The notes below the pieces were generated by a model. The model was not told where the DNA came from. It was given only the letters and a program-made list of their open reading frames with translations, and did no database searches. Shown piece after piece: positions 4,315-41,894 of a stretch of DNA of 43,389 nt. Location of the stretch: positions 1 to 43,389 of the IMG/VR virus record IMGVR_UViG_3300049048_000158. One strand, given 5' to 3'. Position 1 is the first letter of the stretch. Each line of letters starts with the position of its first letter. Source of the stretch: a virus. Position numbers and translations under genes: made by a program.

Positions 4315-6090
4315 TTAGCGTGGGTTACCGTAACCGGTGGTGATGGAAATGGTATAATCGGCCTCCTCGTTGACAGAGAAGGTCACCGGGCCGGCCGTAT
4401 AGTTTTGAACAACAATGCCATTCTTGGAAATGGCAATCCGGTACCCGACCGGAACACTGACGGTAATACTACCAGAAACCGGGTGCTGAATGGCGGTGAA
4501 TTTCTGGGTCAGGGCACCCAGCACGGAGCTGTTCACCGACCAGGTGGTGAGCGTATTGATTACCTGAATGGTAATGGTGGCATTGGTGGTGCTGGCCAGC
4601 TGGCAAAGCTGCTCATTGGGGCCGGCATCGACCCAGCGCAGACCCTGATTGGTATCCGGATTAACGTCCTTTTGCTCTTTCTGCGTGGTGGCATCGGTGC
4701 GCGGAGCGGCGAATTTGCAGCGCACGTTGCCCGTATCCTGCCAGTTGGGCAGGCTGTTAGGATCCGTGCCTTCCGGCACGCAGAATTCGGTACCCGGCTT
4801 GAATCGCCAGGCGGTGGGCCGTACCACCGGTGGCAGTGCCCGGGGCATCCTGCTGAAGTTGCGCTCCTGATGCGAGAGCCGGAATTTGAGCTTAGCGGCA
4901 ACGGTATTGGGCTTGCTGTCTTTGCTGGTGAGTTCCTTACTGACCAATTCCACGGCCATCAGGCCCCGGTGGTTCAGCTGGTAGATCTCCTTGGAATAAA
5001 ATAACTCCTGCAAATACTCCACCCACTCGCGCTGATTTTGGCGGAAGTAGCCGGTATTGGCCAGGATGTCGGTGTCTCCGGAGAGATAGGCCGGAAAAGA
5101 AGCACCGAAACTACGGCCGTAGTTATAGGGCGTGAACCGCTTGCCGGCTTCGCGCTCCGTGACCAGGTTCTCCAATAGATTGCCGGTGCAGCGCAGGGTA
5201 TCGAATCCACCCAGGGAATTGCGGTACAACCAGTAGCTGACTTCATCCGGACGAAAGTAGCGGCGATCTACCTGGTAGGTCCGCACTTCGGAAATGCGCT
5301 CATCGGCCTGATTGGTCACGTAGACGGCGTATTTCCGGATCTGCTTGCCTTCCGTGATTTCTTCCGTGGCCAGTTCCAGGGCCCTAAAGCCCACCGGGAA
5401 GCAGTATACCTGGTAAGCTTTGGGCAGAGCCAGTGTCTGAGCCAGTAGGTTTTTGCTGGTACCATCGTCGAAAGTGAATTCCACGCACAGCTTCAGCTCA
5501 GTAGGCAGGGGCGTGAAATTGGTGAGCAGGTACAAAAATTCCGGCTGCCAGGTATCGATCCACTTGCCATCGGGCTGCCAGGTGAGAAACTGGGCCGTTT
5601 CTTTCAGCCAGGTGACAAAGAAAGAAGTAGCATTATCGGCAAAATCTGAGAAGTTGAGTCCCCCTTTGAGGGCATAATAAACGGGCGTAGCGGCCGGGGT
5701 ACCCACCGGGGTATCCACGCCTTGGGTAACCCGGCTTTCGATCCGGAAGGGCAGTACAGCGCCCGGGCAGGGCGTAATGACCTGAGTATCCCAGTCGGGA
5801 GCTTGCGATTCCAGTGCCAGCAGGGCTTCCAGGATGTCTTCGTAATAGATGGTAGCCCCTTCCCGGATGGTCACCGATCCGACCGTTTTGGGTGGTTTTT
5901 CCCGGGCTTCGCGGGTGGTTTCTTTCACGAAGTTGGTAGAAAGCCAGGCTTCGGGAACGAACAGATCGGCAAAATACCTCAAGGTAGCCCGTTCCTCTAC
6001 ATTAGCCGGAGCGGCCGGAATCAGATGAGCCAGCGGATTGTGGGCCAACCGCAGGGGCAGATACGAAAGGGAGACTAAGGGCGGAATCAT
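4315..6090 (-). CDS. Large tail protein downstream of the tape measure
   Basis: A 591-residue protein whose start overlaps the tape-measure stop by four bases. Residues 1-400 have no motif I recognise and are rich in Thr, Tyr and Trp as in beta-structured virion proteins. Around 430-500 there is a segment with CVPEGTDPNSLPNW, CKFAAP and QKDVNPDTNQGLRWV, which resembles the DxNPxSxTxxxxxWV-type repeats of Bacteroidota surface and phage proteins. The last 90 residues look like an Ig-like or PEGA-like domain (GSITVSVPVGYRIAISKNG). The immediate post-tape-measure position suggests a distal tail protein; it could equally be a side or tip fibre. Lack of a signal peptide agrees with assembly inside the cell. 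Confidence 0.7.
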   Translation of the reverse strand: MIPPLVSLSYLPLRLAHNPLAHLIPAAPANVEERATLRYFADLFVPEAWLSTNFVKETTREAREKPPKTVGSVTIREGATIYYEDILEALLALESQAPDWDTQVITPCPGAVLPFRIESRVTQGVDTPVGTPAATPVYYALKGGLNFSDFADNATSFFVTWLKETAQFLTWQPDGKWIDTWQPEFLYLLTNFTPLPTELKLCVEFTFDDGTSKNLLAQTLALPKAYQVYCFPVGFRALELATEEITEGKQIRKYAVYVTNQADERISEVRTYQVDRRYFRPDEVSYWLYRNSLGGFDTLRCTGNLLENLVTEREAGKRFTPYNYGRSFGASFPAYLSGDTDILANTGYFRQNQREWVEYLQELFYSKEIYQLNHRGLMAVELVSKELTSKDSKPNTVAAKLKFRLSHQERNFSRMPRALPPVVRPTAWRFKPGTEFCVPEGTDPNSLPNWQDTGNVRCKFAAPRTDATTQKEQKDVNPDTNQGLRWVDAGPNEQLCQLASTTNATITIQVINTLTTWSVNSSVLGALTQKFTAIQHPVSGSITVSVPVGYRIAISKNGIVVQNYTAGPVTFSVNEEADYTISITTGYGNPR

Positions 6091-31233: not shown

Positions 31234-31791
31234 TCAGGGAGTGCGTAAAAAACCGTAAGTGAAACCGGAGGAGAATACCTTCCGGGGAGGGGGCAGCAGG
31301 GATTCGTACAACAGGTAGAAGAGCGCCCGGTCGGGGCCCTCGCCACTCAGCGTAAAACCGTAGCCATTCTTTTTGGCTGGCTGATTGCCCGTATCCACAT
31401 CCGCCTTCAGCTTGAGCGTATAGTCGGGATTGCCAATCAGCATCGGATTGGAATTGCCATCCAGGACAATGGCCATCAACTCGTGGCCGCGCTGGGCTTG
31501 GAGCCAATAGTGGATGTCGGGAGCGGTTTTAGGAACGGAAAAGGAAATCTTCCATTTAAAGATTTCGCCCTGGTCGGTATCGGCCGGATCCTCGGAAAAA
31601 GTCGCGGTACCCGGTGTGAAGTAGAGGCCGGCCAGGGTGATGCCGCTCTGCAGTTGGATGGACTGGGCTAAAATAACGCCGTCGTGATCCGGAATACGAA
31701 CCACGTGGGAAGCTTTGAATAATTGCAGGGCCAGCAGGCCCCCGAAGTTATCTCCTTCAGGCCGTGCGAGCGAAGGTAGGGAGGGTGGCAT
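31234..31791 (-). CDS. Unknown late protein at head of adhesin block
   Basis: A 185-residue protein. Beta-rich sequence with AQSIQLQSGITLAGLYFTPGT, KWKISFSVPKTAPDIHYWLQ and NPDYTLKLKADVDTGNQPAKKNGYGF (shown in parts), ending in FSSGFTYGFLRTP. No family is recognised. The size and strand pattern are consistent with a tail or baseplate attachment protein. It starts 35 bases inside the upstream gene in another frame and its stop lies one base before the next start, which argues for coupled translation in this block. Confidence 0.6.
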   Translation of the reverse strand: MPPSLPSLARPEGDNFGGLLALQLFKASHVVRIPDHDGVILAQSIQLQSGITLAGLYFTPGTATFSEDPADTDQGEIFKWKISFSVPKTAPDIHYWLQAQRGHELMAIVLDGNSNPMLIGNPDYTLKLKADVDTGNQPAKKNGYGFTLSGEGPDRALFYLLYESLLPPPRKVFSSGFTYGFLRTP

Positions 31792-32263
31792 GGCTCAGCG
31801 GGTTTACTGGAACTACATCCAGTGCCCGTTGTGATCGCTCGTGCCGGTAATACGCTTTTTTCAGGGTTTCAAAGGCCAGTTCGTCTTCTCCGAATCCATA
31901 GCGTTCCCGGAACTTGTAAATCGCATCCCGGCGCATCACGCCGGCAGCCAGGTGGAGTTCCATGAAGGTGAAGAATTGCGCCTTGATCAGATCATCCACA
32001 AAGTTGTTCAACTGCATCACTGAATAGGTGCTCAGGTAGCGAACGCCCCGGTTAAAGACAAAGCCCTTGGGAATGTCCACCGTGTAGCTCTTCTCATAAG
32101 ACTGGAGCACGTATTCATACTGCTTGTCCTTTGAATTGCGCTTGAGTAGATGGCTAAGCAGCAAACCAACCGAATGAGACTTGGTGAGTGTCATCGACAA
32201 CCCAAATTGTGAATTCAGGTACTTGTAGACGTGAGCCTTGACAGGGATCTGGATGGAGATCAT
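31757..32263 (-). CDS. Conserved phage protein leading the late region
   Basis: A 168-residue protein from the ATG at 32263 (MISIQIPVKAHVYKYLNSQF); a longer version would add 18 hydrophobic residues of less likely coding sequence. The start IPVKAHVYKYL and the later DIPKGFVFNRGVRYL, MQLNNFVDDLIKAQFFTFMELHLAAG and YKFRERYGFGEDELAFETLKKAYYR are of a type I associate with Bacteroidota phages; the C-terminal part could be a helix-turn-helix. It might be a late-transcription regulator or a DNA-binding virion protein, but I know no tested function. As the first gene of a 30-kb late block it is placed well to be a regulator. Confidence 0.6.
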   Translation of the reverse strand: MISIQIPVKAHVYKYLNSQFGLSMTLTKSHSVGLLLSHLLKRNSKDKQYEYVLQSYEKSYTVDIPKGFVFNRGVRYLSTYSVMQLNNFVDDLIKAQFFTFMELHLAAGVMRRDAIYKFRERYGFGEDELAFETLKKAYYRHERSQRALDVVPVNPLSHATLPTFARTA

Positions 32264-32546
32264 AGCGATAATTTCACTGGCAAAAGAGCGGAAAAGGGAT
32301 AGAACCAGAAAGGACAAGCCAAACGGGCAAAAAAAGCTGAAGGGAAGGATCTCGAATAGGTTGTCCGTAAAGATAAGGGTTAAAACGGATCGGCAATTCT
32401 TAGGGGTAAATCCAAAAAGGAAGTACTCAGTTAATATTTACAAATTAGAATTAATAACTTACATAGGTCTTTTAAGCGGTACTTCTTAGTATGATCAAAA
32501 CTGCTGCTAAGTATACTTTTGTACTACAAACAAAACAGATTATGAT
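32264..32546. promoter_or_regulatory. Divergent intergenic region, late block versus lipoprotein
   Basis: This 283-base AT-rich gap separates the first late gene (-) from the lipoprotein gene (+). The + strand has a -7 element TACTTTTG (32514-32521) overlapped by the perfect palindrome AAGTATACTT (32509-32518), 26 bases before the ATG. No convincing TAnnTTTG was found on the - strand, so the late promoter is not visible and may need a phage activator. Confidence 0.45.
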
Positions 32547-32918
32547 ATGAAGTATTTACTTATGCTGTCTCTTGCCTGTTTGGTGTTCACTTCTTGTAAA
32601 AAGAATGAAGACCCATCCATGTACAAAGTTAAGTTTTCTGTAACCGGTACCTCGGTGAATCAATTTAAATTCAATACTGAAGGGCTTCCGGCCTCTACAA
32701 GTGTGGCTGTACCATTTACCGGGACCAGAGACACAACCGTTTATGTGAGCTTAGCACAAACACTCAGTTTAGATACAAAAGCTGATGCAACTACCAGCAG
32801 CAAATTAGAAGGAAAAATTTATGTCAATGATGTTCTGGTGGCTAGCCAGGTAGATGAAGATACTGATAAAGATGGCAAAACGCAGGTAAAATTAAATTAC
32901 ACTATCGTAGCCAAGTAA
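32547..32918 (+). CDS. Small lipoprotein (probable lysogenic cargo)
   Basis: A 123-residue lipoprotein with signal peptide MKYLLMLSLACLVFTSC and the lipidated Cys at 17, followed by KKNEDPS, a charged stretch as often seen in Bacteroidota lipoproteins that reach the cell surface. The mature part is Thr/Ser/Val/Asp-rich beta sequence (VTGTSVNQFKFNTEGLP, DKDGKTQVKLNYTIVAK). No family is recognised. It has its own -7 element and a strong terminator, so it is an independent unit and not part of the late operon. That pattern is typical of a moron expressed from the lysogen, perhaps altering the host surface. Base composition is visibly richer in A/T than the late genes. Confidence 0.75.
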   Translation: MKYLLMLSLACLVFTSCKKNEDPSMYKVKFSVTGTSVNQFKFNTEGLPASTSVAVPFTGTRDTTVYVSLAQTLSLDTKADATTSSKLEGKIYVNDVLVASQVDEDTDKDGKTQVKLNYTIVAK

Positions 32919-32955
32919 TGGATTTGTAGTGTACTGAAAAAAAGGGTACTTGAAA

Positions 32956-32993
32956 AGGCCGGCTTTCCCGTAAGGAAGCCGGCCTCTTTTTTT
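32956..32993 (+). terminator. Intrinsic terminator after the lipoprotein gene
   Basis: Arms AGGCCGGCTT and AAGCCGGCCT (10 perfect pairs, extendable by CC/GG with a bulge) enclose a short loop and are followed by seven T. It lies 37 bases past the stop codon. Confidence 0.9.
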
Positions 32994-33084
32994 GGTTTTA
33001 GTGTACTGCTGAAAACGCTCCTTTTTTCGTACAAAATAAGTATATTGGAATGCTTAAAATCTACATTAGTTGCATCACTTCACT

Positions 33085-33738
33085 ATGGTTTATTCCAATA
33101 TTTATCAAAGAACATTTTTCATAAAATATGATCGATATAATGGTACAGCGTTCACTTTTGAAAGAGATGGTGTTCAATATTTAGCATCAACAGGGCATAC
33201 TTTCCCCTACGTTACAAATGGGCAGCAGATACAATACTTCATTTACAGAAACAACAACTGGATAGAAATGGAAGGGTATATTTATTTGCATCCTAACTCC
33301 CAAGTTGATATATGTATTATCTCTCTACCAAGAGATATTTCTCAAAGACATCCTATAATCCTAACTTCAGTTGGGATGGCTTTAAGTATGGATGTGTACT
33401 TTCTAGGGTTTCCTTATGGTAGATTTATGGATGTTGCCCAACCGGTAAATAGTGGATATCCTATTCCTTATGTCAAGAAAGGAATTATTTCATCCTTTTC
33501 CGTTATTGATGGAGTGGAGATAATATTTTTAGATGGTATGAACAATCCAGGCTTTTCCGGGGGACCGTGTATATATATGAAGAGGAACACTACAATACCA
33601 GTTGTAATAGGAATAATAAAAGGTTACGTTCCGAACGAAATACAATTTAATTCCCCATTAGGTCCTATTACCTATAATGAAAATTCAGGTATTGTTGATG
33701 TTCAGTCTATTAAATATTTGGATGACATAATCATCTAA
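33085..33738 (+). CDS. Trypsin-like serine protease, cytosolic
   Basis: A 217-residue protein from the ATG at 33085; a TTG at 33070 would add five residues without cause. It has the chymotrypsin-fold catalytic triad in order: H38 in ASTGHTF, D75 in SQVDICIISL and S158 in NNPGFSGGPCI, where GFSGGP is the nucleophile motif. There is no signal peptide or membrane segment, so it would act in the cytoplasm. Its A/T-rich codon use differs from the late genes. It lies in a + strand cargo block before a serine recombinase, 5 bases from it. Similar stand-alone trypsin-like proteins occur as effectors or processing enzymes in bacterial immune systems; here no partner protein is recognised, so a defence role is only inferred from location. 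Confidence 0.85.
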   Translation: MVYSNIYQRTFFIKYDRYNGTAFTFERDGVQYLASTGHTFPYVTNGQQIQYFIYRNNNWIEMEGYIYLHPNSQVDICIISLPRDISQRHPIILTSVGMALSMDVYFLGFPYGRFMDVAQPVNSGYPIPYVKKGIISSFSVIDGVEIIFLDGMNNPGFSGGPCIYMKRNTTIPVVIGIIKGYVPNEIQFNSPLGPITYNENSGIVDVQSIKYLDDIII

Positions 33739-33743
33739 ATCAT

Positions 33744-34370
33744 ATGAAAGTAACCCTCTTCGTCCGAGTAAGCCGCAAAGACCAATCCTACCAGCGTCAG
33801 GTATCGGAGCTCACCGAATACGCCCGCTCCCTCAACTGGGAAGTGGTCCATGTCATCGAAGAAAAGATTTCCGGATCCAAGACCCGACTGGAAAGCCGGC
33901 CTGGATTTAAGCAGCTTTTCGACCTGGTGGGCAGTGGCCAGGTGAACAAAGTACTGATCAGTGAGGTGACCAGGCTGGGCCGACGGACCCGGGATCTGCT
34001 GGAGGTGATTGAATTCCTGCACCAGCACAGAGTCAGCCTGGTTGTCTATAATTATAGATTAGAAACGCTGGACCATCGCGGCAAGGTCAATTCTATGGCG
34101 CAATTCCTGATTACGCTGTTAGGAGATATTGGAAGGATGGAGACTGAGACGCTTTCTGAGCGAACCCTTTCCGGATTGGAGGAAGCCAAGCGAAAAGGCA
34201 AGAAGCTCGGCCGGCCAGCTGGCAGTCAGATGGATGCTCAACAACTACTACAGGAATATGCAGGTGTAGTGAAGGATCTTAAAAATGGTCTGAGCATCCG
34301 TAAGACAGCTGCCTTCCGGAAGATATCAGTGGATACCGTACAACGAGTTAAAAAAGCAATCAATATTTAA
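33744..34370 (+). CDS. Serine recombinase (resolvase/invertase)
   Basis: A 208-residue resolvase-type protein. The catalytic domain (about 1-140) has the nucleophile S10 in VRVSRKDQ, then ISGSKTRLESRPGF, LISEVTRLGRRTRDLLEVIEFL and the dimer helix region SMAQFLITLLGDIGRMETETLSERTLSGLEEAK. The C-terminus carries LGRPAGS and a helix-turn-helix (SIRKTAAFRKISVDTVQRV). It has the size of resolvase/invertase proteins and lacks the long C-terminal part of large serine integrases. No res-like paired sites or invertible segment are obvious beside it, but the inverted-repeat array 600 bases downstream is a candidate site. It could serve plasmid-like resolution, DNA inversion, or be a transfer relic. Confidence 0.93.
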   Translation: MKVTLFVRVSRKDQSYQRQVSELTEYARSLNWEVVHVIEEKISGSKTRLESRPGFKQLFDLVGSGQVNKVLISEVTRLGRRTRDLLEVIEFLHQHRVSLVVYNYRLETLDHRGKVNSMAQFLITLLGDIGRMETETLSERTLSGLEEAKRKGKKLGRPAGSQMDAQQLLQEYAGVVKDLKNGLSIRKTAAFRKISVDTVQRVKKAINI

Positions 34371-34381
34371 CGTCATTAATT

Positions 34382-34804
34382 ATGGAATACATCAAAACAG
34401 TTGAGGAATTATTAGAAATAATTGGTCATCATTTAGACCCTGAAGCACTTGATCAGAAGTCGGTAGAAGGAAAACTTGAGATATACTTCAATTTTAAATA
34501 TTTAGGCTACTCTTCATCAAAAATGGATGGTGAATATTTTTGGACTGCCATAAATTCTCAAACCCTTGATCACTATAGTAAGTACTTGGCTACTCCTAAT
34601 GTGATTGATTTTTTGATTAACAGCGGAGTCATGGCCGAACCGCTTCAGAATCGTTCTATCATCAAGTTATTTGGTTACTCACAAGGAGGAAGGATAGGTG
34701 ACATACTTGCCTTAAATACTAGAAATGTATTTGGGAGCACTGGAGTTTTACAAGTCGGTGGTCAAGGAGGAGCTAATCTTGATATTAGTAGTTTGTTACG
34801 CTAA
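34382..34804 (+). CDS. Unknown protein after the serine recombinase
   Basis: A 140-residue protein, MEYIKTVEELLEIIGHHLD..., with a helix near the start, a beta-rich part (KLEIYFNFKYLGYSSSK) and a Gly-rich end (SQGGRIGDILALNT, then QVGGQGGANLDISS). The pairs of glycine-rich turns may be a nucleotide- or DNA-binding site or simply loops. It starts 11 bases after the recombinase stop and shares its transcription unit, which ends in a terminator 27 bases past the stop. A/T-rich codon use suggests recent transfer, as for the protease two genes upstream. No function can be assigned. Confidence 0.65.
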   Translation: MEYIKTVEELLEIIGHHLDPEALDQKSVEGKLEIYFNFKYLGYSSSKMDGEYFWTAINSQTLDHYSKYLATPNVIDFLINSGVMAEPLQNRSIIKLFGYSQGGRIGDILALNTRNVFGSTGVLQVGGQGGANLDISSLLR

Positions 34805-34960: not shown

Positions 34961-35219
34961 AATCGTGCTTTTGAACTGTCTTTCTGAACTAAATTGATTT
35001 TTAGTTACTTACAACTTTTTTACAGTTCAAATCAGTTCAAAATCAGTTCAAACCAGTTCAAAAAATTTGAACTGAATCGTGCTGTCGAAGGCCCAAAACA
35101 GCCAAATTTGAGGGGTGTAAAAAAAATTTGAACTGGTTTGAACTGATTCGTGCTGTTTTCGTGCTGCCATTTTCTGCGATTCCAGCCAGTATGGGAAGAT
35201 TTTTGCCCTTCAGCACGAA
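34961..35219. repeat. Composite repeat array (CAGTTCAAA iterons and TCGTGCT motifs)
   Basis: CAGTTCAAA occurs at 35023, 35033, 35044 and 35054, a spacing of 10, 11 and 10 bases, so all four lie on one face of the helix. The reverse form TTTGAACTG occurs at 34970, 35066, 35127 and 35137. TCGTGCT occurs at 34963, 35077, 35148 and 35159, and reversed (AGCACGA) at 35212. Twice they join as TTTGAACTG-AA/AT-TCGTGCTG. Phages use such helically phased direct repeats as initiator-binding iterons or repressor sites. Confidence 0.8.
35041..35148. repeat. 22-bp perfect inverted repeat
   Basis: The 22 bases at 35041-35062 (AATCAGTTCAAACCAGTTCAAA in two pieces: AATCAGTTCAA and ACCAGTTCAAA) are the exact reverse complement of 35127-35148. 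The spacer is 64 bases. A transcript across it would form a long hairpin; as DNA it may form a cruciform or a two-site protein target. Confidence 0.8.
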
Positions 35220-35311
35220 AGCACTTTTGCATATTCTCTTACTCAATGTTTTTCATGAAAGTATAAATAAAGAATATATATAAGGGGAGTGGTCAAAAAA
35301 TCTCACTTTAG

Positions 35312-35552: not shown

Positions 35553-36347
35553 TTAAACAGTCGAATCACTCTTATCTGATTTTTGCACTTTATCTTTTTC
35601 TGAAGTAGGCTCTTCTAACAAAATCTTATGAGTGGTAACTACTGATTCGATAAAAGCTTCTGATAGTACTTTTGCCTTTACCCAAAACACAAATGTGAAA
35701 AAACAATAAATACCAAAGATGCAAAGCTTATCCCAAGGCCAATAAGATATGGTATTGAAGAATTTGATATAAAAGAATAGGAAGAATGAATAAAAGGATA
35801 AAATAATTAAAACTGTTTCCAATCCATTTAAGAGATCCTTAACAACATACCAATAATTACTGTACGTGTATTGTCCCTTCACCTGTAAGTAGACCGCTTT
35901 TTCCCAAAATTGTTTCTCATAGGTTTGGGCGTCTATCAGACCTTGGTTGCTCTGGCTATCTTTGTTCGCCGGTCGAACACCTGTCAGATACTGAGACAAC
36001 AGAGCTCCTGCAACTCTTCCACCCATACCAGTGCGATAAATAAAACCATTTACTCCTGGTTCTGTAGCGTGATCGTAAAAGAATTTTTTTACAAGTTTAT
36101 ATCTAACCATATCAATGGCCTGAATGAGATGACCCATGATATAAAGGCAGGCAATGACTGAAAAAACAAATAGAGTATTGCTGCTTTTCAGTACTTCAAA
36201 AAGGGGATTTACTTTAGTTGGATCGACCTTAAATGCCGTAACATAGTTTGACAAATTCTCAAATTCGATAGGGATTAAAAATATCACGAATGAGAAGCCG
36301 CACAAGAAGTAGACAACTATGTCTCTTAGCGTAAATTTAAAGTCCAT
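35553..36347 (-). CDS. Four-pass membrane protein
   Basis: A 264-residue protein with hydrophobic segments at about 10-28 (IVVYFLCGFSFVIFLIPI), 57-75 (LFVFSVIACLYIMGHLIQ), 175-195 (VLIILSFYSFFLFFYIKFF) and 205-225 (LCIFGIYCFFTFVFWVKAK), and a soluble region of about 95 residues between the second and third. The C-terminus is charged (EEPTSEKDKVQKSDKSDSTV). It stands alone between the noncoding repeat region and the early genes, with A/T-rich codon use and a probable own terminator. This is a typical place for a moron, for example a superinfection-exclusion or defence effector, but I recognise no family. Which side of the membrane the large loop faces is not determined. Confidence 0.75.
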   Translation of the reverse strand: MDFKFTLRDIVVYFLCGFSFVIFLIPIEFENLSNYVTAFKVDPTKVNPLFEVLKSSNTLFVFSVIACLYIMGHLIQAIDMVRYKLVKKFFYDHATEPGVNGFIYRTGMGGRVAGALLSQYLTGVRPANKDSQSNQGLIDAQTYEKQFWEKAVYLQVKGQYTYSNYWYVVKDLLNGLETVLIILSFYSFFLFFYIKFFNTISYWPWDKLCIFGIYCFFTFVFWVKAKVLSEAFIESVVTTHKILLEEPTSEKDKVQKSDKSDSTV

Positions 36348-36458
36348 GCTAGTTTTTTTATTTAGGCATTTGGATACTATTTAAATATAATTCTATGAAT
36401 ATGAAATAAACTTCAAAAGTTAAAATCTAAATACTGGATATTTATTTGAGCCCGGATT

Positions 36459-36821
36459 TTAGGTTAGTAGTAAGGTGTGTTGTGTCTTTTTGTATTTTTT
36501 ACCGTACTTCCGGCTTGCGATGGATCGGAAAGTCCTCCGATCGGCACATTCCTTACTATCATAGCCCAGGTGGCACTTCTGACAAAGGGCTTTCAACCGG
36601 TCGTCTGATACCTCCCAGTTCTGCGGATCTCGGTCGAGGTGGGCAATGGTCAAAATGATTTTGGTCTGGTGTACCGAGCCATCCTTCCAGATCCGCTCCA
36701 CTACGGAATAATTTTCAACCCCACAGCCTGGCGTTTCGCACCGGTGGCCAGCTCTGGCCAGAATACGAGGCCGCCTGACCTTTTTCCAGTCAGGCGGATA
36801 GATCTTGTAATTGCAGGGCAT
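36459..36821 (-). CDS. HNH endonuclease
   Basis: A 120-residue HNH protein with zinc-binding cysteines C28 and C33 (CETPGC), H61 in IAHLD, and the closing SDDRLKALCQKCHLGYD with C80, C83 and H84. This is the usual pattern of small phage HNH nucleases; the middle Asn of the motif seems to be replaced or shifted (candidate N68). In cos phages such proteins sit next to the terminase and help cut DNA; here it is at the end of the early region, 18 kb from the terminase, so a role in recombination or host-DNA attack is equally possible. It is 11 bases from the upstream gene and so probably cotranscribed with the primase unit. Confidence 0.88.
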   Translation of the reverse strand: MPCNYKIYPPDWKKVRRPRILARAGHRCETPGCGVENYSVVERIWKDGSVHQTKIILTIAHLDRDPQNWEVSDDRLKALCQKCHLGYDSKECADRRTFRSIASRKYGKKYKKTQHTLLLT

Positions 36822-36832
36822 AATTTAACTGA

Positions 36833-37210
36833 TTATTGCTTTTCCTGATAGAAGCTATCAATGGATTCCACTAGCTCATCAATTCCCTCCACAATGATCA
36901 TATTCTCCGTACCAAAAGTGAGGGTGATGGGAAGGCCAGAACGGCGACTGTTGTGAATGGCTATATTCATTTCATTGAATTTAGCCACAACCAGTTTTAC
37001 CAATTGCTGCAGTTGATGCCTGTTGTGATCAATCACGACTACACCATCATGCCTGGTACTATGAAGCACTTGCATGCCGGCACTAAAAAGTCTGCTGATC
37101 GTCAGATCACGCTCTTTTTCAGCACCACCTGAAAAACTTCGCCCGGTCTCATCCAGCAGGCGAAAGAGGAAGGTCAGCTTCAACGTGAGGGATTCTTTAG
37201 AAATGGTCAT
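36833..37210 (-). CDS. Unknown early protein
   Basis: A 125-residue protein from the ATG at 37210 (MTISKESLTLKLTFLFRLLDE); a longer reading would overlap the upstream gene. It has a helix, then GAEKERDLTISRLFSAGMQVL, a strand with HDGVVVIDHNRHQ, LQQLVKLVVAKFNEMNIAIH, and ends IVEGIDELVESIDSFYQEKQ. No family is recognised. It is the second-to-last gene of the early operon, between a 69-residue protein and the HNH nuclease, and is 8 bases from the former. A role in replication or recombination is only by association. Confidence 0.6.
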   Translation of the reverse strand: MTISKESLTLKLTFLFRLLDETGRSFSGGAEKERDLTISRLFSAGMQVLHSTRHDGVVVIDHNRHQLQQLVKLVVAKFNEMNIAIHNSRRSGLPITLTFGTENMIIVEGIDELVESIDSFYQEKQ

Positions 37211-37218
37211 AAGAAGAA

Positions 37219-37428
37219 TTAGGATTTTAAGTGAATGGGTAATTCCTCCAGCAGATCCGAAGGAGTAAGAAGGTCCATATGGTATTCCAGGCCTTTCCTG
37301 AATCGGTGAGCTCCGGTCAACTTCCAATGGGTATCAGGCAGGCCATCTACTAAGCGGAGCTTTTGAATATTGTTCCAGCAGTTCCGATGCACCTCCAGTA
37401 GGATGGGTATTAGTCTGTCTTCACTCAT
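37219..37428 (-). CDS. Small unknown early protein
   Basis: A 69-residue protein, MSEDRLIPILLEVHRNCWNNIQ..., with helical beginning and a basic middle (LTGAHRFRKGLEYHMDLL). It overlaps the primase-helicase stop by four bases, so it is translated with it and may be an accessory factor. No family is recognised. Confidence 0.6.
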   Translation of the reverse strand: MSEDRLIPILLEVHRNCWNNIQKLRLVDGLPDTHWKLTGAHRFRKGLEYHMDLLTPSDLLEELPIHLKS

Positions 37429-40169
37429 GGCATTACGTAGCTAGAATTGGCAATCGTGAAATATTCCTTTCCGTTGGATTTGTCGTCTTCGCCCTTTTTG
37501 TGCGGATTGAAGTCGTAGGCTTTGTACTCGCAGTACTTCTTTACGCCCTTTTTGAAAGTGCTGGATTTGAGAAACTTCTTGAAATTGGGTGCTGCCTCCA
37601 GCAATTCCCGGAAAACTTCCTCTTTTTCCAGTCGGGTGTTGAGCTTGCCCCCACCTTCCATAAAATACAACTCCGCCCAGGTAAAGAACTCTTCGCTCAT
37701 TTCCTGACGTAGCCGGCGCTTGATCAGCGTGGTATTGGGAGCCGTGATGATGTCATACTCCAGGTAGAGCTTCAGGCACGTGGCCATCAGGTTGTAAAAC
37801 AGGTTCCACTGATCGGGATTCCACTCGTCGAAAAACAGGCAGCCAAACTCATCCACCGGCTTTCGCTTGGCATTGTAGTAGTCCGAAAAGCCCAGCAGGA
37901 TCTGTCGATCCAGGAAGGAATCGGAATCTCCGGAAATGGCGTGATTGGTGGTAAAAAGCAGCTTGGGCGTGTGCTCTTTGGCAATCTTATATTTTGACTG
38001 CCCTTTTTTATTCACCGTCAACCGGCCGGTGATGATGGTGAAAAACGATTCAAAGTCTACCGACTTATCAATGTCATCGAACCAGATCAGCTCCGATCGC
38101 TCGTCTACTTCTTCGTAGAGGAACTGATCTTCCTCCATCTTTTTCTTTTTGCCGTCAATAAAAACGGTCGGGATCATTTGTTCCAGGCCGACTCCCACCA
38201 GTGACTTCCCGGTACGGCCAAACGACTGGCCGACTTCGCTCACCTTGGCATCCATGCAGATCACGGCTTTGGCCTTGGAAGGATTGCGGTAGGAGTGGAG
38301 CAGGTACCCGATGGCCGTTAGTTTATTGAGCAGGCTCAGCACCTGCTCGTATTCCTGCTCATCAGTGAGGGGCTTGGTAGGCTCCGCTGGATCCAGCGGG
38401 TTCGTCTGACGCCAGTAGATCCGGCTGGCATTGCTCAGGTAGCTGAGGTAATCACAGCCCTGGGCACATTCGGCAATTTCGTAATCGTAGTACGTTTCAC
38501 CCTGGTGCTGATGGGTAGTAATTTTGAGAAAGTCAGGAATCAGCGTAGGCTCAAAGGTGACGGTCTTATCTTTCCAGATAAAATGAGGAAGATCAGTAAG
38601 GGATTGCTCCTCGATGCCCTGGGCTGTTACTTTCCAGTACTTGGTTTGAAAGCAGAGGTACTGATAATCCTTTGCCGGCGGGAGAAACTGTACGTTGAGG
38701 TATTTGAGGTTGCCCAGGCTCTCCGGACCCAAATACTTATTGCCCCGGTAGAGCATATTCAACACGTCAATTTCCCCGATTTCTTCCGTGAATGTCTGTA
38801 CGAAATCTTTGATGTGGTGCGGCTTTACTTCGTAGACCAGCTTTCCTTCCTTTCGAATGAAAATATAGCCCTCACCCTTGGCGGAGGCTATCTCGTAGCG
38901 GCCAAAGCCACGTGCTTTCAGAAAGTTGTAGCAGTTAAAATAATTGAAGGAAAGCACCATTTTGGACTTGGTACCATATTCCTCCAGATCGCGGCTCCAG
39001 AAGGTTTCTTCGGGCAGTAGTGGCTGAGCCAGTTCGATGCTACCATCTTCCTTGAAACGCCACTCAGTTTTCCAGTATTTAAACTTTTCACCCTTGGCCA
39101 GCAGCTTCTCCCGGTATTTCTCGGCAAACTCCTTGGCATTATTCACCCCAAAATAGCTACGTAGCTTTACCTCGCTGTCAGTAGTGATTTTATGCAGCTG
39201 TAGGTACTGCCCTTCCCGGTGCTTATCAATCAACCCATTCGCCAACTCTTCCTTCAGGATGGATTCTTTCCCATTCAGCGAGCCGGCCAGCAAATCATCA
39301 ATCCCTTTTTCCCCTTCTGGCCCGGGCTTGGTGTACCCGAAATAGATTTCCAGATCAATTTCATCACTGGAGAGCGCCCGGAAGTAGTCCCTGAAGTTGC
39401 GTACGGCGCAATAAAAAAGATCGGGCCGGCTGTTGGCCGGTCCACTTGCCTTCTCTCCCAGATCAAAAAGGTCGGAGTCGAGCAGGAAAACGATATTCTT
39501 TACCGCGCACGTCCGGATGATCTTGTCGAACTCTACCGGCAAATTGTTATTAGTGGCCAGGTTAAATATGCCGGAAATGCCTACCGCGTAGGTCAATTCC
39601 TGGCAAAACTTATCGGCTTTCTTTTCCCCCTCGGTAATGATCAGGGTTTCGATGGGTAGCTTCTGTTCGTAGGCTTGAATCACCTTCTCAGGCAACCATA
39701 TCTTGCTTCCGGATCCGGGAGGGGAAGCGTACTTCATCGGCTTTTGGTACTTGTCCAGGTGGCGATCTGGGTACTGGTGGCGAACCCGTACAAAATCCTT
39801 TGTTTTATTGAATTTGGGCGGCTCGTACTGCATTACGAAGCGGTCCAGATCAATGTAAAGCATCACCATATCGTCGCCCGGCTCAATCTTCCACTGTTTG
39901 CTGAACGAGCCGGGGAAATAGCGATCAAGCTCTTCTTCTTTGTATTTGGGTTTTTCAGGTTCAGGAGCATCCGGATCTGTGGACTTGCCCCGGGCCATAC
40001 TCACAAAGAAGGCATCGCCTTCAAAGTCTACATTCTTTTTACTTTTTGAGTCATGGATTAGAAATTTGACAATTGATTTTTGAGATTCTTCGCGGATACC
40101 TGATTGCTGGAGGCTCTTATCGCGGAAAGTTTGAAGTGTGTTGGTAGATGTTTTTAAGGCATTATCCAT
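37425..40169 (-). CDS. DNA primase-helicase (TOPRIM plus SF3/D5-like helicase)
   Basis: A 914-residue protein that should prime and unwind phage DNA. The N-terminal half has a TOPRIM-like domain at about 160-240: TLIITEGEKKADKF with E180, and IVFLLDSDLFDL with D231 and D233. The C-terminal part is a D5/SF3-type helicase: a Walker A-like GRTGKS near 650-656, Walker B LIWFDDID near 692-699, and KLLFTTNHAISGDSDSFLDRQ with sensor-type features around 730-750, followed by QILLGFSDYY and a DUF-like tail. It is the largest early gene and the only replication protein I recognise. A terminator separates it from upstream early genes. No polymerase, SSB or initiator is seen, so the phage would rely on the host for those. 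Confidence 0.88.
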   Translation of the reverse strand: MDNALKTSTNTLQTFRDKSLQQSGIREESQKSIVKFLIHDSKSKKNVDFEGDAFFVSMARGKSTDPDAPEPEKPKYKEEELDRYFPGSFSKQWKIEPGDDMVMLYIDLDRFVMQYEPPKFNKTKDFVRVRHQYPDRHLDKYQKPMKYASPPGSGSKIWLPEKVIQAYEQKLPIETLIITEGEKKADKFCQELTYAVGISGIFNLATNNNLPVEFDKIIRTCAVKNIVFLLDSDLFDLGEKASGPANSRPDLFYCAVRNFRDYFRALSSDEIDLEIYFGYTKPGPEGEKGIDDLLAGSLNGKESILKEELANGLIDKHREGQYLQLHKITTDSEVKLRSYFGVNNAKEFAEKYREKLLAKGEKFKYWKTEWRFKEDGSIELAQPLLPEETFWSRDLEEYGTKSKMVLSFNYFNCYNFLKARGFGRYEIASAKGEGYIFIRKEGKLVYEVKPHHIKDFVQTFTEEIGEIDVLNMLYRGNKYLGPESLGNLKYLNVQFLPPAKDYQYLCFQTKYWKVTAQGIEEQSLTDLPHFIWKDKTVTFEPTLIPDFLKITTHQHQGETYYDYEIAECAQGCDYLSYLSNASRIYWRQTNPLDPAEPTKPLTDEQEYEQVLSLLNKLTAIGYLLHSYRNPSKAKAVICMDAKVSEVGQSFGRTGKSLVGVGLEQMIPTVFIDGKKKKMEEDQFLYEEVDERSELIWFDDIDKSVDFESFFTIITGRLTVNKKGQSKYKIAKEHTPKLLFTTNHAISGDSDSFLDRQILLGFSDYYNAKRKPVDEFGCLFFDEWNPDQWNLFYNLMATCLKLYLEYDIITAPNTTLIKRRLRQEMSEEFFTWAELYFMEGGGKLNTRLEKEEVFRELLEAAPNFKKFLKSSTFKKGVKKYCEYKAYDFNPHKKGEDDKSNGKEYFTIANSSYVMP

Positions 40170-40196
40170 AATAAGAATTTGAGGTACCTATAAAAA

Positions 40197-40223
40197 ACCG
40201 GTAGGGTGGAAGCCTCTACCGGT
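40197..40223 (-). terminator. Intrinsic terminator between early units
   Basis: On the - strand ACCGGTA and TACCGGT pair, extended by three more pairs (one G-U), around a seven-base loop, followed by six T. It lies 19 bases past the stop at 40242 and before the primase-helicase ATG at 40169, so the small early genes and the primase may be differently expressed. Confidence 0.8.
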
Positions 40224-40241
40224 CAGAAAACACTTTCTTTT

Positions 40242-40535
40242 TCAGGTGATATTTGATTTGTAGATTGAAAACACCCCTGCGGATCTAGGTTCAAATTCAG
40301 GAGCCAGCTGGGATTGGTAATGGTTCCAGACCGATGCCTCAGCAGATTCCAGCATTCCGATTTCGTGCATGATCTCCGAGACCGTTCCCCGAAACTCATC
40401 CTCCATCATCGGACTTACCTGATTTTGGAGCAATACGCCCCGGAGACGCCTGGCCAGCAGGTCTAATTCAGCTGCTTTTACCTCCAGCAGATTCTGTAGC
40501 AGCATAAGTTTCCCGTCATTGGATGAATCAGCCAT
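40242..40535 (-). CDS. Small helical early protein
   Basis: A 97-residue protein from the ATG at 40535 (MADSSNDGKLMLLQNLLEVK); longer readings overlap the previous gene further. It is largely coiled coil with RRLRGVLLQNQVSPMMEDEFRGTVSEIMHEI. No family is recognised. The start lies 8 bases inside the upstream gene, so translation is likely coupled, and the gene is followed by an intrinsic terminator. Confidence 0.6.
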   Translation of the reverse strand: MADSSNDGKLMLLQNLLEVKAAELDLLARRLRGVLLQNQVSPMMEDEFRGTVSEIMHEIGMLESAEASVWNHYQSQLAPEFEPRSAGVFSIYKSNIT

Positions 40536-40923
40536 GGATTGAATGTTCGGTACCGCCGTCCCCCGGATGAGTGTTGCGAAAGTGGTACCTCTGCACATTG
40601 GCAGATTTCTTTTCCCGAAGCATCGAGTCGTATTGATCAGTCAGGAATCGGAGTTCATTGAGGTACACCTCTCCGATGAGTTGCCGGCGCTCCGGATGGG
40701 GACAGTCTCTGATTTCCATAATGGCCGTGGTGGCGACATCGGAGAGCAGCCGATCCAGCAGGTCACCGTTGCTGGTGCCGTTCCGGATGGCTTCTACTTC
40801 CTCGAAAAGAGGTCCGAATTCCTGTAAGACGGCGCAGTGAATGGCCGTCTCAAAAAGGGTGGGTTTGCGCTCCAGAAATGAGCGGTTTGCATCAATAGGA
40901 TGCGATTTTTCGTTACTTTGCAT
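40528..40923 (-). CDS. Helical early protein
   Basis: A 131-residue protein, MQSNEKSHPIDANRSFLERKP..., with helical segments (TLFETAIHCAVLQEFGPLFEEVEAIRN, then RRQLIGEVYLNELRFLTDQYDSMLREKK, shown in part) and a His/Arg-rich end. No family is recognised. It is the second gene of the early unit controlled from the switch region. Together with the gene it overlaps (to 40535), it could be a regulatory or anti-host protein; nothing in the sequence decides it. Confidence 0.6.
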   Translation of the reverse strand: MQSNEKSHPIDANRSFLERKPTLFETAIHCAVLQEFGPLFEEVEAIRNGTSNGDLLDRLLSDVATTAIMEIRDCPHPERRQLIGEVYLNELRFLTDQYDSMLREKKSANVQRYHFRNTHPGDGGTEHSIHG

Positions 40924-40965
40924 ATGCGTTCGAGGGGTTTGTAGAGACTCTATCGGAATTATTAG

Positions 40966-41000
40966 GGGCAGGTCGTTGCAAGCGGCCTGCCCTGTTTTTT
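40966..41000 (+). terminator. Terminator-like hairpin in the + orientation
   Basis: GGGCAGG (40966-40972) and CCTGCCC (40986-40992) pair, and six T follow on the + strand (40995-41000). On the - strand, where the neighbouring genes are read, no T run follows the stem. It would stop transcripts running toward the repressor, but no + gene lies upstream. Confidence 0.5.
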
Positions 41001-41016
41001 ATAGCTGAGTAATGGA

Positions 41017-41307
41017 TCATCTCTGCGGAGGGACCATTTTCTGGCGCTTAGCCAGACTTTTTATTGGTGGCTTAGGCTTGGGAGTATACAGCCGGTCGAA
41101 AGCCTCCGCGATGGGTAGGTGAAAGCTGCGGCGGTTGCGGGTCTGATAGACCTGCTGTTCGGTGTAGGGAACGCCAGGCCGGTATTCAATTCCGAGATTA
41201 TCCAATTCCTTCAGTACTTCTGGTGCATAATTCCTGAAAGGAATGTGATTGTCAATCCGGTTGAAAATCTCAATGCATTTGAGCTTTCGGGCGTTTGTAA
41301 GTGTCAT
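41017..41307 (-). CDS. Small early protein, first gene after the switch region
   Basis: A 96-residue basic protein: MTLTNARKLKCIEIFNRIDNH..., PEVLKELDNLGIEYRPGVPYTEQQVYQTRNRRSFHLP and a C-terminal PKPKPPIKSLAKRQKM (motifs given in part). It may have a helix-turn-helix, but that is uncertain. It is the first gene read from the promoter at 41347-41376 and divergent from the repressor, the usual place of a Cro-like or early regulatory protein. No family is recognised. The start ATG is at 41307, 40 bases past the promoter -7 element. Confidence 0.6.
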   Translation of the reverse strand: MTLTNARKLKCIEIFNRIDNHIPFRNYAPEVLKELDNLGIEYRPGVPYTEQQVYQTRNRRSFHLPIAEAFDRLYTPKPKPPIKSLAKRQKMVPPQR

Positions 41308-41320
41308 CGTTATTTACATT

Positions 41321-41332
41321 ATTTGTACAAAT
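41321..41332. promoter_or_regulatory. 12-bp palindrome in the switch region
   Basis: ATTTGTACAAAT is a perfect palindrome close to the start of the early transcript, 14 bases from the ATG at 41307. It could be a second regulator site in addition to the two repressor-type operators. Confidence 0.5.
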
Positions 41333-41346
41333 AGGATCTAGTAAGA

Positions 41347-41376
41347 CAAAAATATAACCTTATTGGTTATTAACAA
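41347..41376 (-). promoter_or_regulatory. Early promoter (Bacteroidota type)
   Basis: On the - strand TATTTTTG (41354-41347) matches the -7 consensus TAnnTTTG. A TTG (41376-41374) stands exactly 19 bases upstream as the -33 element. It should drive the early gene starting at 41307. The first operator palindrome fills the space between the two elements. Confidence 0.75.
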
Positions 41377-41390
41377 ACCATATTGGTTAT
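41354..41390. promoter_or_regulatory. Two palindromic operators, probable repressor sites
   Basis: ATAACC-TTATT-GGTTAT at 41354-41370 has perfect six-base arms. CAAACC-ATATT-GGTTAT at 41374-41390 has the same AACC-N5-GGTT core. Their centres are 20 bases apart, about two helical turns. They cover the early promoter and lie upstream of the repressor gene, as lambda-type operators do. Confidence 0.75.
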
Positions 41391-41410
41391 ATTTTTAGCA
41401 TTTGCTAAAC

Positions 41411-41821
41411 ATGGAAAACCAAGACTCTGTACAAATTGGTGTAAATCAACGCTTTATAACTGTGTTTGATGCATTAAGAAATTCTGGAGCAGTAAAGAAT
41501 AAGAAGGATTTTTGTGATAAAATCGGCATCCCAGCTCAGCATTTTAGTGACTTTCAGAAGAATGATAGGAATGTATCACCCAGATTGATTAGTGAACTTT
41601 ATAACCAATTTGGTGTGTCAGCAGAGTATATGCTTTTGAACAAAGGAGGGATGTTTGAGAAAAAAGAAAGTATGGTGGTTGAGCCTGAGCCTAAATATTT
41701 GACAAAAGATGAAATGCTTGCTAAGCTCATCAATGAGATGGAATTCAAAACCAAGCAGCTACAGCGGTGTGAAGAAGAGGTAGATAGGCTTAAAAATGGT
41801 CGCACTCCTGTTTATGGCAAG
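41411..41821 (+). CDS. Phage repressor-like HTH protein
   Basis: A 136- to 137-residue protein from the ATG at 41411; a TTG nine bases earlier is less likely. The stop codon is at 41822-41824. Residues 28-75 form a Cro/CI-type helix-turn-helix: KNKKDFCDKIGIPAQHFSDFQK, then VSPRLISELYNQFGVSAEYML (shown in part), as in Bacteroidota phage repressors. A short coiled coil follows (LINEMEFKTKQLQRCEEEVDRL). There is no S24 peptidase domain, so it lacks the RecA-triggered self-cleavage of CI and LexA and must be inactivated another way. It is divergent from the early unit over a 103-base region with two palindromic operators, so it is the most likely lysogeny repressor. Confidence 0.85.
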
Positions 41822-41894
41822 TAATTAGGCAGGCTACAAAACAATAACCCTGGTTTTACCAGGCAAATCAAAAACTAAGTATATCCCCTGATTA

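Follow-up and report, generated by a model that had tools for sequence, protein, structure and literature searches.

A putative iteron-type replication origin near the primase-helicase gene of a temperate Bacteroidota phage

A noncoding array of short repeats in the virus record IMGVR_UViG_3300049048_000158 is very probably the vegetative replication origin of the phage, with iterons that are predicted to be bound by the phage's own primase-helicase. The window analyzed here comprises the whole IMG/VR record, i.e., 43,389 nucleotides. The reading builds on an array whose layout and place are kept in related phages and whose sequence depends on the type of the initiator, together with the predicted fold class of the initiator in the window.

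The repeat array and its setting in the phage genome

Eight exact copies of CAGTTCAAA are present within 176 bp (34970-35145), and the window contains no further exact copy. Four of them are on the plus strand, with starts at 35023, 35033, 35044, and 35054 and hence a spacing of 10-11-10, and four are on the minus strand at 34970, 35066, 35127, and 35137. They are interleaved with TCGTGCT, which occurs at 34963, 35077, 35148, and 35159 on the plus strand and at 35212 on the minus strand. In two places, 35066-35085 and 35137-35156, TTTGAACTG is followed by TCGTGCTG. The first-pass annotation had already described these copies at these positions (four forward, four reversed, five TCGTGCT/AGCACGA), including the two fusions in the same order. 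In 1000 order-2 Markov replicas built from local noncoding DNA, with any 9-mer counted per 180 bp, at most four copies were reached, whereas in the array a single 9-mer occurs eight times within this length. When one mismatch to CAGTTCAAA was allowed, 26 matches were found in the window, versus a mean of 12.6 and a maximum of 21 in shuffles.

The array had been described as two interleaved motifs. The interleaving is real, but the two motifs are not distinct: in the same orientation, CAGTTCAAA and CAGCACGAA are variants of one site, CAG[TC][TA]C[AG]AA, with a core of the GYNC type. The window contains 14 such sites in the layout pair (8)-52-six-51-four-52-pair (8), and the steps between cores are 10, 11, 10, 13, and 10 in the six-site cluster and 10, 10, and 11 in the four-site cluster (Table 1). 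The array spans 260 bp, and a scan of all 43,389 bases found only this one. Its location had been recognized correctly as 34961-35219, but its extent had been underestimated, because the 14th core at 35221, which closes the second outer pair, lies beyond that interval, and an AT-rich tract continues on the right to about 35285. The AT content of this flank is 0.7-0.9 in three 20-bp bins (relatives, 0.70-0.86). Helical phasing had been proposed for the array as a whole. A global test for a helical period yielded a best period of 9.5 and a long-range signal not above that of shuffles, and because this test was not clean, phasing is claimed solely within clusters. The region is noncoding; an ORF of 66 aa is the only one that overlaps the array.

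Table 1. Features of the proposed origin and of associated genes in the window.
Feature	Position	Strand	Remark
Proposed phage replication origin, iteron array and AT-rich flank	34961..35290	.	Layout and place kept in relatives; sequence tracks initiator type
Outer site pair, cores GTGC 34965 and GAAC 34973, 8 bp apart	34963..34978	-	Inverted outer pairs in 38/51 relatives, 0.0 expected
Six-site cluster, cores 35025, 35035, 35046, 35056 (+), 35069, 35079 (-)	35023..35085	+	Sequence
Four-site cluster, cores 35130, 35140, 35150, 35161	35127..35166	-	Sequence
Outer site pair, cores GCAC 35213 and 35221, 8 bp apart	35211..35226	+	Reverse complement is GTGCTTTCGTGC
AT-rich flank, candidate unwinding element, tatatatattctttatttatactttcatg on minus strand	35229..35285	.	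Alignment by eye to the AT-rich flank conserved in relatives
c3 family gene	31757..32272	-	HMM E=2.8e-13
Putative inserted cargo module: lipoprotein, trypsin-like protein, serine recombinase, 140-aa protein	32547..34804	+	Lower G+C; no good homologues in relatives
Serine recombinase, resolvase/invertase type	33744..34370	+	PF00239 E=6.4e-31
Primase-helicase, 914 aa, proposed array-binding initiator	37425..40169	-	DUF3854 weak; phrog_28855; predicted fold nearest SaPI5 primase-helicase

The record looks like a trimmed prophage, because its first codon is the start of a tyrosine integrase gene and it closes with a stop codon. Its virion and lysis genes include a tape measure, a portal-like protein, a head protease, and an endolysin. 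The array is flanked by the 3' end of the replication operon (35553-41307), which runs leftward, and by the rightward module at 32547-34804, which closes with a terminator-like hairpin. At the other side of the replication operon, between it and an HTH gene (41402-41824), the region 41300-41440 contains short TTTGTACA-type repeats (e.g., ATTTGTACAAAT) as well as ATAACC(A/T)AT-type repeats, which look like repressor operators.

Arrays of the same layout in related phages

A direct search with the array DNA against phage and plasmid collections returned nothing relevant, and single-protein scans with the primase or the recombinase yielded no relatives. The primase matched phage MT835542, which carries a different array at the corresponding place, and a two-sequence alignment (A1), then used as query, retrieved 80 viral and 7 genome loci. 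The repeat scan extended from about 3.5 kb upstream of the primase gene to 7.5 kb downstream. For the majority of loci, the best repeat cluster was located 0.2-5.7 kb downstream of that gene, and each has its own word of 8-9 bp (e.g., CAGCACGA, ACAGTCCA, CAGTACAA, TTCGTGCG, AATCGTGC, TTTGTGCG, AAGTGTGC). No convincing array was detected in the scanned stretch of some primase-bearing relatives, e.g., L100 and L125. The counts given below are based on 51 non-redundant loci with a repeat cluster downstream of the primase gene, after loci with a coding or plainly other-type best cluster had been dropped by hand, and they are uncorrected for kinship between phages.

The layout of the arrays is widely shared. 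Tandem cores 8 bp apart are present in 43 of the 51 loci (1.0 expected), and 38 contain inverted outer pairs with this spacing (0.0 expected), which mostly span 227-234 bp. Consecutive cores are separated by 8 bp 131 times, versus 7.2 times after shuffling, and by 9-11 bp 216 times, versus 20.6. Typical spacings in the relatives are 8 / 54-56 / 11, 10, 9, 10 / 17 / ... / 55 / 8. The window departs from this commonest layout in its longer span (260 bp) and in the sizes of its clusters. At least two core classes are mixed in 26 of the 51 loci, as they are in the window, and therefore an appearance of two interleaved motifs is usual. An AT-rich tract adjoins the primase-side pair in the relatives (CATATATATA..CTTTTTTTTATTT..AAAAAGACTACC.TAAAAAA), with a mean AT content of 0.83-0.86 in the bins that lie at -20 and -60 relative to the outer pair, and the window has its counterpart, tatatatattctttatttatactttcatg, in the corresponding position. 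Five relatives (L089, L094, L126, L137, and L175) share the outer pair GTGCTTTCGTGC with the window letter by letter.

In contrast to the layout, the letters of the iterons vary from phage to phage. The exact motif of the window is missing at the same place in the relatives, which had been named as a finding that would refute the first-pass reading. This is a misleading test, because arrays of the same layout with other letters are present there.

The tandem pattern of CAGTTCAAA was also tried as a route to relatives, and it was abandoned; the scan returned 85 stretches, none of them recognizably related, and the loci with at least three phased copies differ in their flanks, with the TCGTGCT variant missing from them. 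In a group of unrelated phages (L077:10189-10808, L007, L010, L015, L017, L049, L057, L061, and L075), two to six tandem copies of CAGTTCAAAC lie just upstream of a 153-aa gene whose product resembles the small subunit of a terminase. These copies are frequently located at the ends of contigs, and L077 also carries terminase and portal genes. In these phages the tandems are perhaps a feature of the packaging site. Two loci with more distant primases have a long downstream array of AGAATGTTG/CGAATGTTA words in inverted pairs (L156:6568-7007, L157:9680-10079), which could be the origin of that subgroup.

Association of the array with the replication module

In about 50 relatives the array is located directly 5' of a gene family of about 160 aa, called c3 here, which is the first gene of the late block. 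The c3 gene of the window is 2.65 kb away from the array, behind the rightward module on the opposite strand. A search with c3 as the probe, meant to distinguish its contribution from that of the initiator, yielded 53 loci, all with c3. The array class followed the initiator type. GYAC-type cores outnumber GTTAC in 19 of 19 loci with a type-1 primase-helicase, while GTTAC/GTAAC predominate in 10 of 10 loci with a type-2 enzyme (Fisher p=5e-8, uncorrected for kinship). Loci encoding DnaG-like CHC2/DNAG_N/TOPRIM proteins have arrays of 13 TCTACA or 13 CCAAC, and those with VapE helicases have arrays of 7-8 CTACA. Among the c3-probed loci with DUF7833 / phrog_19658 initiators, an array is absent, and coding DNA extends right up to c3.

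Pairs of loci point in the same direction. The c3 proteins of L183 and L185 are 88% identical, the initiators differ, and the arrays are unrelated; L194 and L197 share 75% identity in c3, and only L197 has an array, of GTTAC type. Array similarity is 0.354 for pairs with similar primases and unlike c3 and 0.347 when both are alike, compared to a background of 0.146; it is 0.163 for pairs with similar c3 and unlike primases (n=3). Pairwise co-variation of the array with the primase domain is weak, and therefore the argument rests on the module swaps. Judged from these sequence comparisons, the array belongs with the replication module and not with c3, and the co-inheritance of array class and initiator type suggests that the repeats are specific to the cognate initiator. 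The iteron-type origin, one of three options in the first-pass annotation, is thus strongly supported by a layout that is kept in relatives and letters that track the initiator.

The proposed initiator was modeled with AlphaFold from 61 sequences (pLDDT 88.9). The best PDB match of the model is the SaPI5 primase-helicase (7ola, E=3.2e-9, with a sequence identity of about 10% in the structural match), followed by ASFV PrimPol, poxvirus D5/E5, and the enzyme of phage NrS-1. The C-terminal 100 residues are modeled with helices at 813-824, 826-835, 849-859, and 869-882 and strands at 846-848, 896-898, and 901-907, which would fit a winged helix. The homologous protein of L089 has CHC2, DUF3854, and DUF5906 domains, and the protein of the window lacks the N-terminal CHC2 zinc part. 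None of the ORFs upstream of the primase-helicase gene obviously supplies a CHC2 domain, and another protein may be needed for priming.

By analogy with P4, the PICIs, and SaPI, replication would start at the array. Several copies of the primase-helicase would bind the iterons of about 9 bp, probably via the C-terminal winged-helix domain. The initiator-helicases would load on the outer pairs and on the clusters, in which the sites are spaced by about one helical turn, and helicase rings would assemble. The AT-rich flank at 35229-35285 would then melt, and the same protein would unwind and prime.

The neighborhood of c3 suggests another function, namely, that the array is a control region of the late operon, at which c3 or another regulator binds and turns on the late genes. 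The first-pass annotation had likewise listed a multi-operator control region. In addition to the position directly 5' of c3, the c3 homologue of phage BT-TP2 is annotated as "transcriptional regulator," and the c3 model (pLDDT 89), which has no match in the PDB, is helical in its C-terminal half, and this half weakly resembles HTH domains. However, the array follows replacements of the replication protein even though c3 is retained, as in L183/L185, and it is kept when c3 is exchanged. Where the initiator is of the DUF7833 kind, c3 has no array next to it, and in the window c3 is remote and separated by opposite-strand genes. The array tracks the replication protein rather than the neighboring late gene, and we regard late-operon control as improbable. 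An origin that is recognized by another co-inherited replication protein, e.g., the product of a small gene, instead of the primase-helicase, would agree with the genes of about 110 aa (clusters 8 and 9) that often separate the primase gene from the array and are inherited together with the primase. This is also quite unlikely: in L153 the array directly follows the primase gene with no gene between them, the window has different genes at this place (a 164-aa ORF, an HNH gene, and a membrane protein gene, unlike those of the relatives), and known proteins of related fold recognize their own origin.

The serine recombinase adjoins the array in the window, and a recombination site of this enzyme had been considered. 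In the 142 loci of relatives, most of which carry arrays, no good homologue was found for the recombinase, its 140-aa neighbor, the trypsin-like protein, the lipoprotein, or the membrane-protein gene; three loci encode a recombinase of about 25% identity, more than 7 kb from the array. Furthermore, an arrangement of 14 short sites in four groups is unlike a resolvase/invertase crossover site. We consider this explanation highly improbable; the recombinase is most likely cargo, neither the partner of the array nor part of the origin, because the genes of its module are without good homologues in these loci. A dispersed host repeat of the REP type, or a chance simple repeat, could be invoked, as unrelated viral contigs also contain CAGTTCAAAC in tandem. 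Against this stand the uniqueness of the array in the window, the other flanks and the missing TCGTGCT variant at loci with at least three phased copies, and the corresponding arrays of the relatives, which keep layout and place but have different words. Such a repeat is hardly credible. The recombinase site, the late-operon operator, and the host repeat were all rejected on the grounds given here.

At the spot of the cargo module, extra kilobases or minus-strand genes are also present in L140, L146, L165-L167, and L174, and therefore the spot between the origin and c3 may be a hot spot for cargo. The c3 family itself (window 31757-32272, L137:14258-14728, BT-TP2 gp8) has a confidently modeled fold of about 160 aa and stands at the head of the late block in many Bacteroidota prophages. 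The best BFVD match of the c3 model is an uncharacterized 157-aa protein of phage Leef_1.

Implications and comparison with known systems

An iteron origin with a P4/PICI-like initiator is already known as a kind, and it is apparently undescribed so far in Bacteroidota phages, in which related arrangements appear to be widespread. In our searches of open-access literature we found no description of replication origins of temperate Bacteroidota phages, none of a four-group layout in full-size phages of this type with replaced words and kept geometry, and none of initiator and array swapping in front of one late gene. The kept geometry with changing letters is a clean natural data set on protein-DNA specificity, and a recognizable origin with its cognate initiator and natural swaps makes origin use, incompatibility, and targeting by satellites or defence systems testable. 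Two isolated phages with comparable arrays can serve as test systems. The B. thetaiotaomicron phage BT-TP2 has a GTTAC array in the noncoding stretch 4907-5500 (PQ571279) before the c3 gene gp8, and the Polaribacter phage Leef_1 has GATTACA repeats in noncoding DNA ahead of gp39; this gene of 157 aa is probably the Leef_1 c3, judging from its length and from the c3 fold match to the 157-aa Leef_1 protein.

As a tentative extension, possible rather than probable when taken as a whole, temperate Bacteroidota phages would share one "origin socket" ahead of c3, where the early and late regions meet. Initiator and iteron modules would be swapped whole, with at least four kinds of initiators (primase-helicase types 1 and 2, DnaG-helicase, VapE). 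Type 1 would keep the geometry (8, ~54, phased cluster, ~54, 8) while the letters drift freely, and mixed-class arrays like that of the window would represent intermediates or dual-affinity designs. If this were true, the letter drift would perhaps allow escape from incompatibility, satellites, or origin-targeting nucleases.

The nearest known counterpart is the pri-rep-ori arrangement of PICIs and SaPIs. PICI origins are located just 3' of pri-rep, with an AT-rich region between two sets of iterons (PMC6092414), and the window shares with them an iteron origin 3' of a gene for a primase or initiator-helicase and an AT-rich region (PMC6092414). Sites in opposite orientations and an initiator with a predicted fold nearest to the SaPI5 primase-helicase are further similarities. 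In contrast to these satellites, the phages described here are full-size temperate phages, and the window encodes its own virion genes. The arrays have four groups of sites with 8-bp outer pairs instead of two iteron sets, and their AT tract lies outside the primase-side pair rather than being flanked by two sets. Moreover, the array does not follow immediately 3', but is 2.2 kb away from the gene in the window and up to 5.7 kb in relatives.

The satellite phage P4 has two separate cis sites, ori and crr, whereas the window has a single array, and the repeat words are different. P4 alpha combines a TOPRIM-type primase, an SF3 helicase, and a DNA-binding domain, through which it acts on the origin repeats (PMC4234260), and the proteins considered here may be built in a similar way, with the putative winged helix as the DNA-binding domain; a zinc domain as in P4 alpha is present in relatives such as L089 and missing from the protein of the window. 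Plasmid and phage replicons of the pRN1 ORF904 type also encode a primase with an SF3 helicase and a C-terminal winged helix and have the cis site downstream of their own gene (PMC4234260), but they have an archaeo-eukaryotic primase domain and a large stem-loop in place of iterons. The PLE satellites have a RepA_N initiator and three iterons of about 30 bp, and their proteins and host group are unrelated; as proposed here, however, their repA varies in step with the iteron origin, and both are swapped as one module (PMC8263062).
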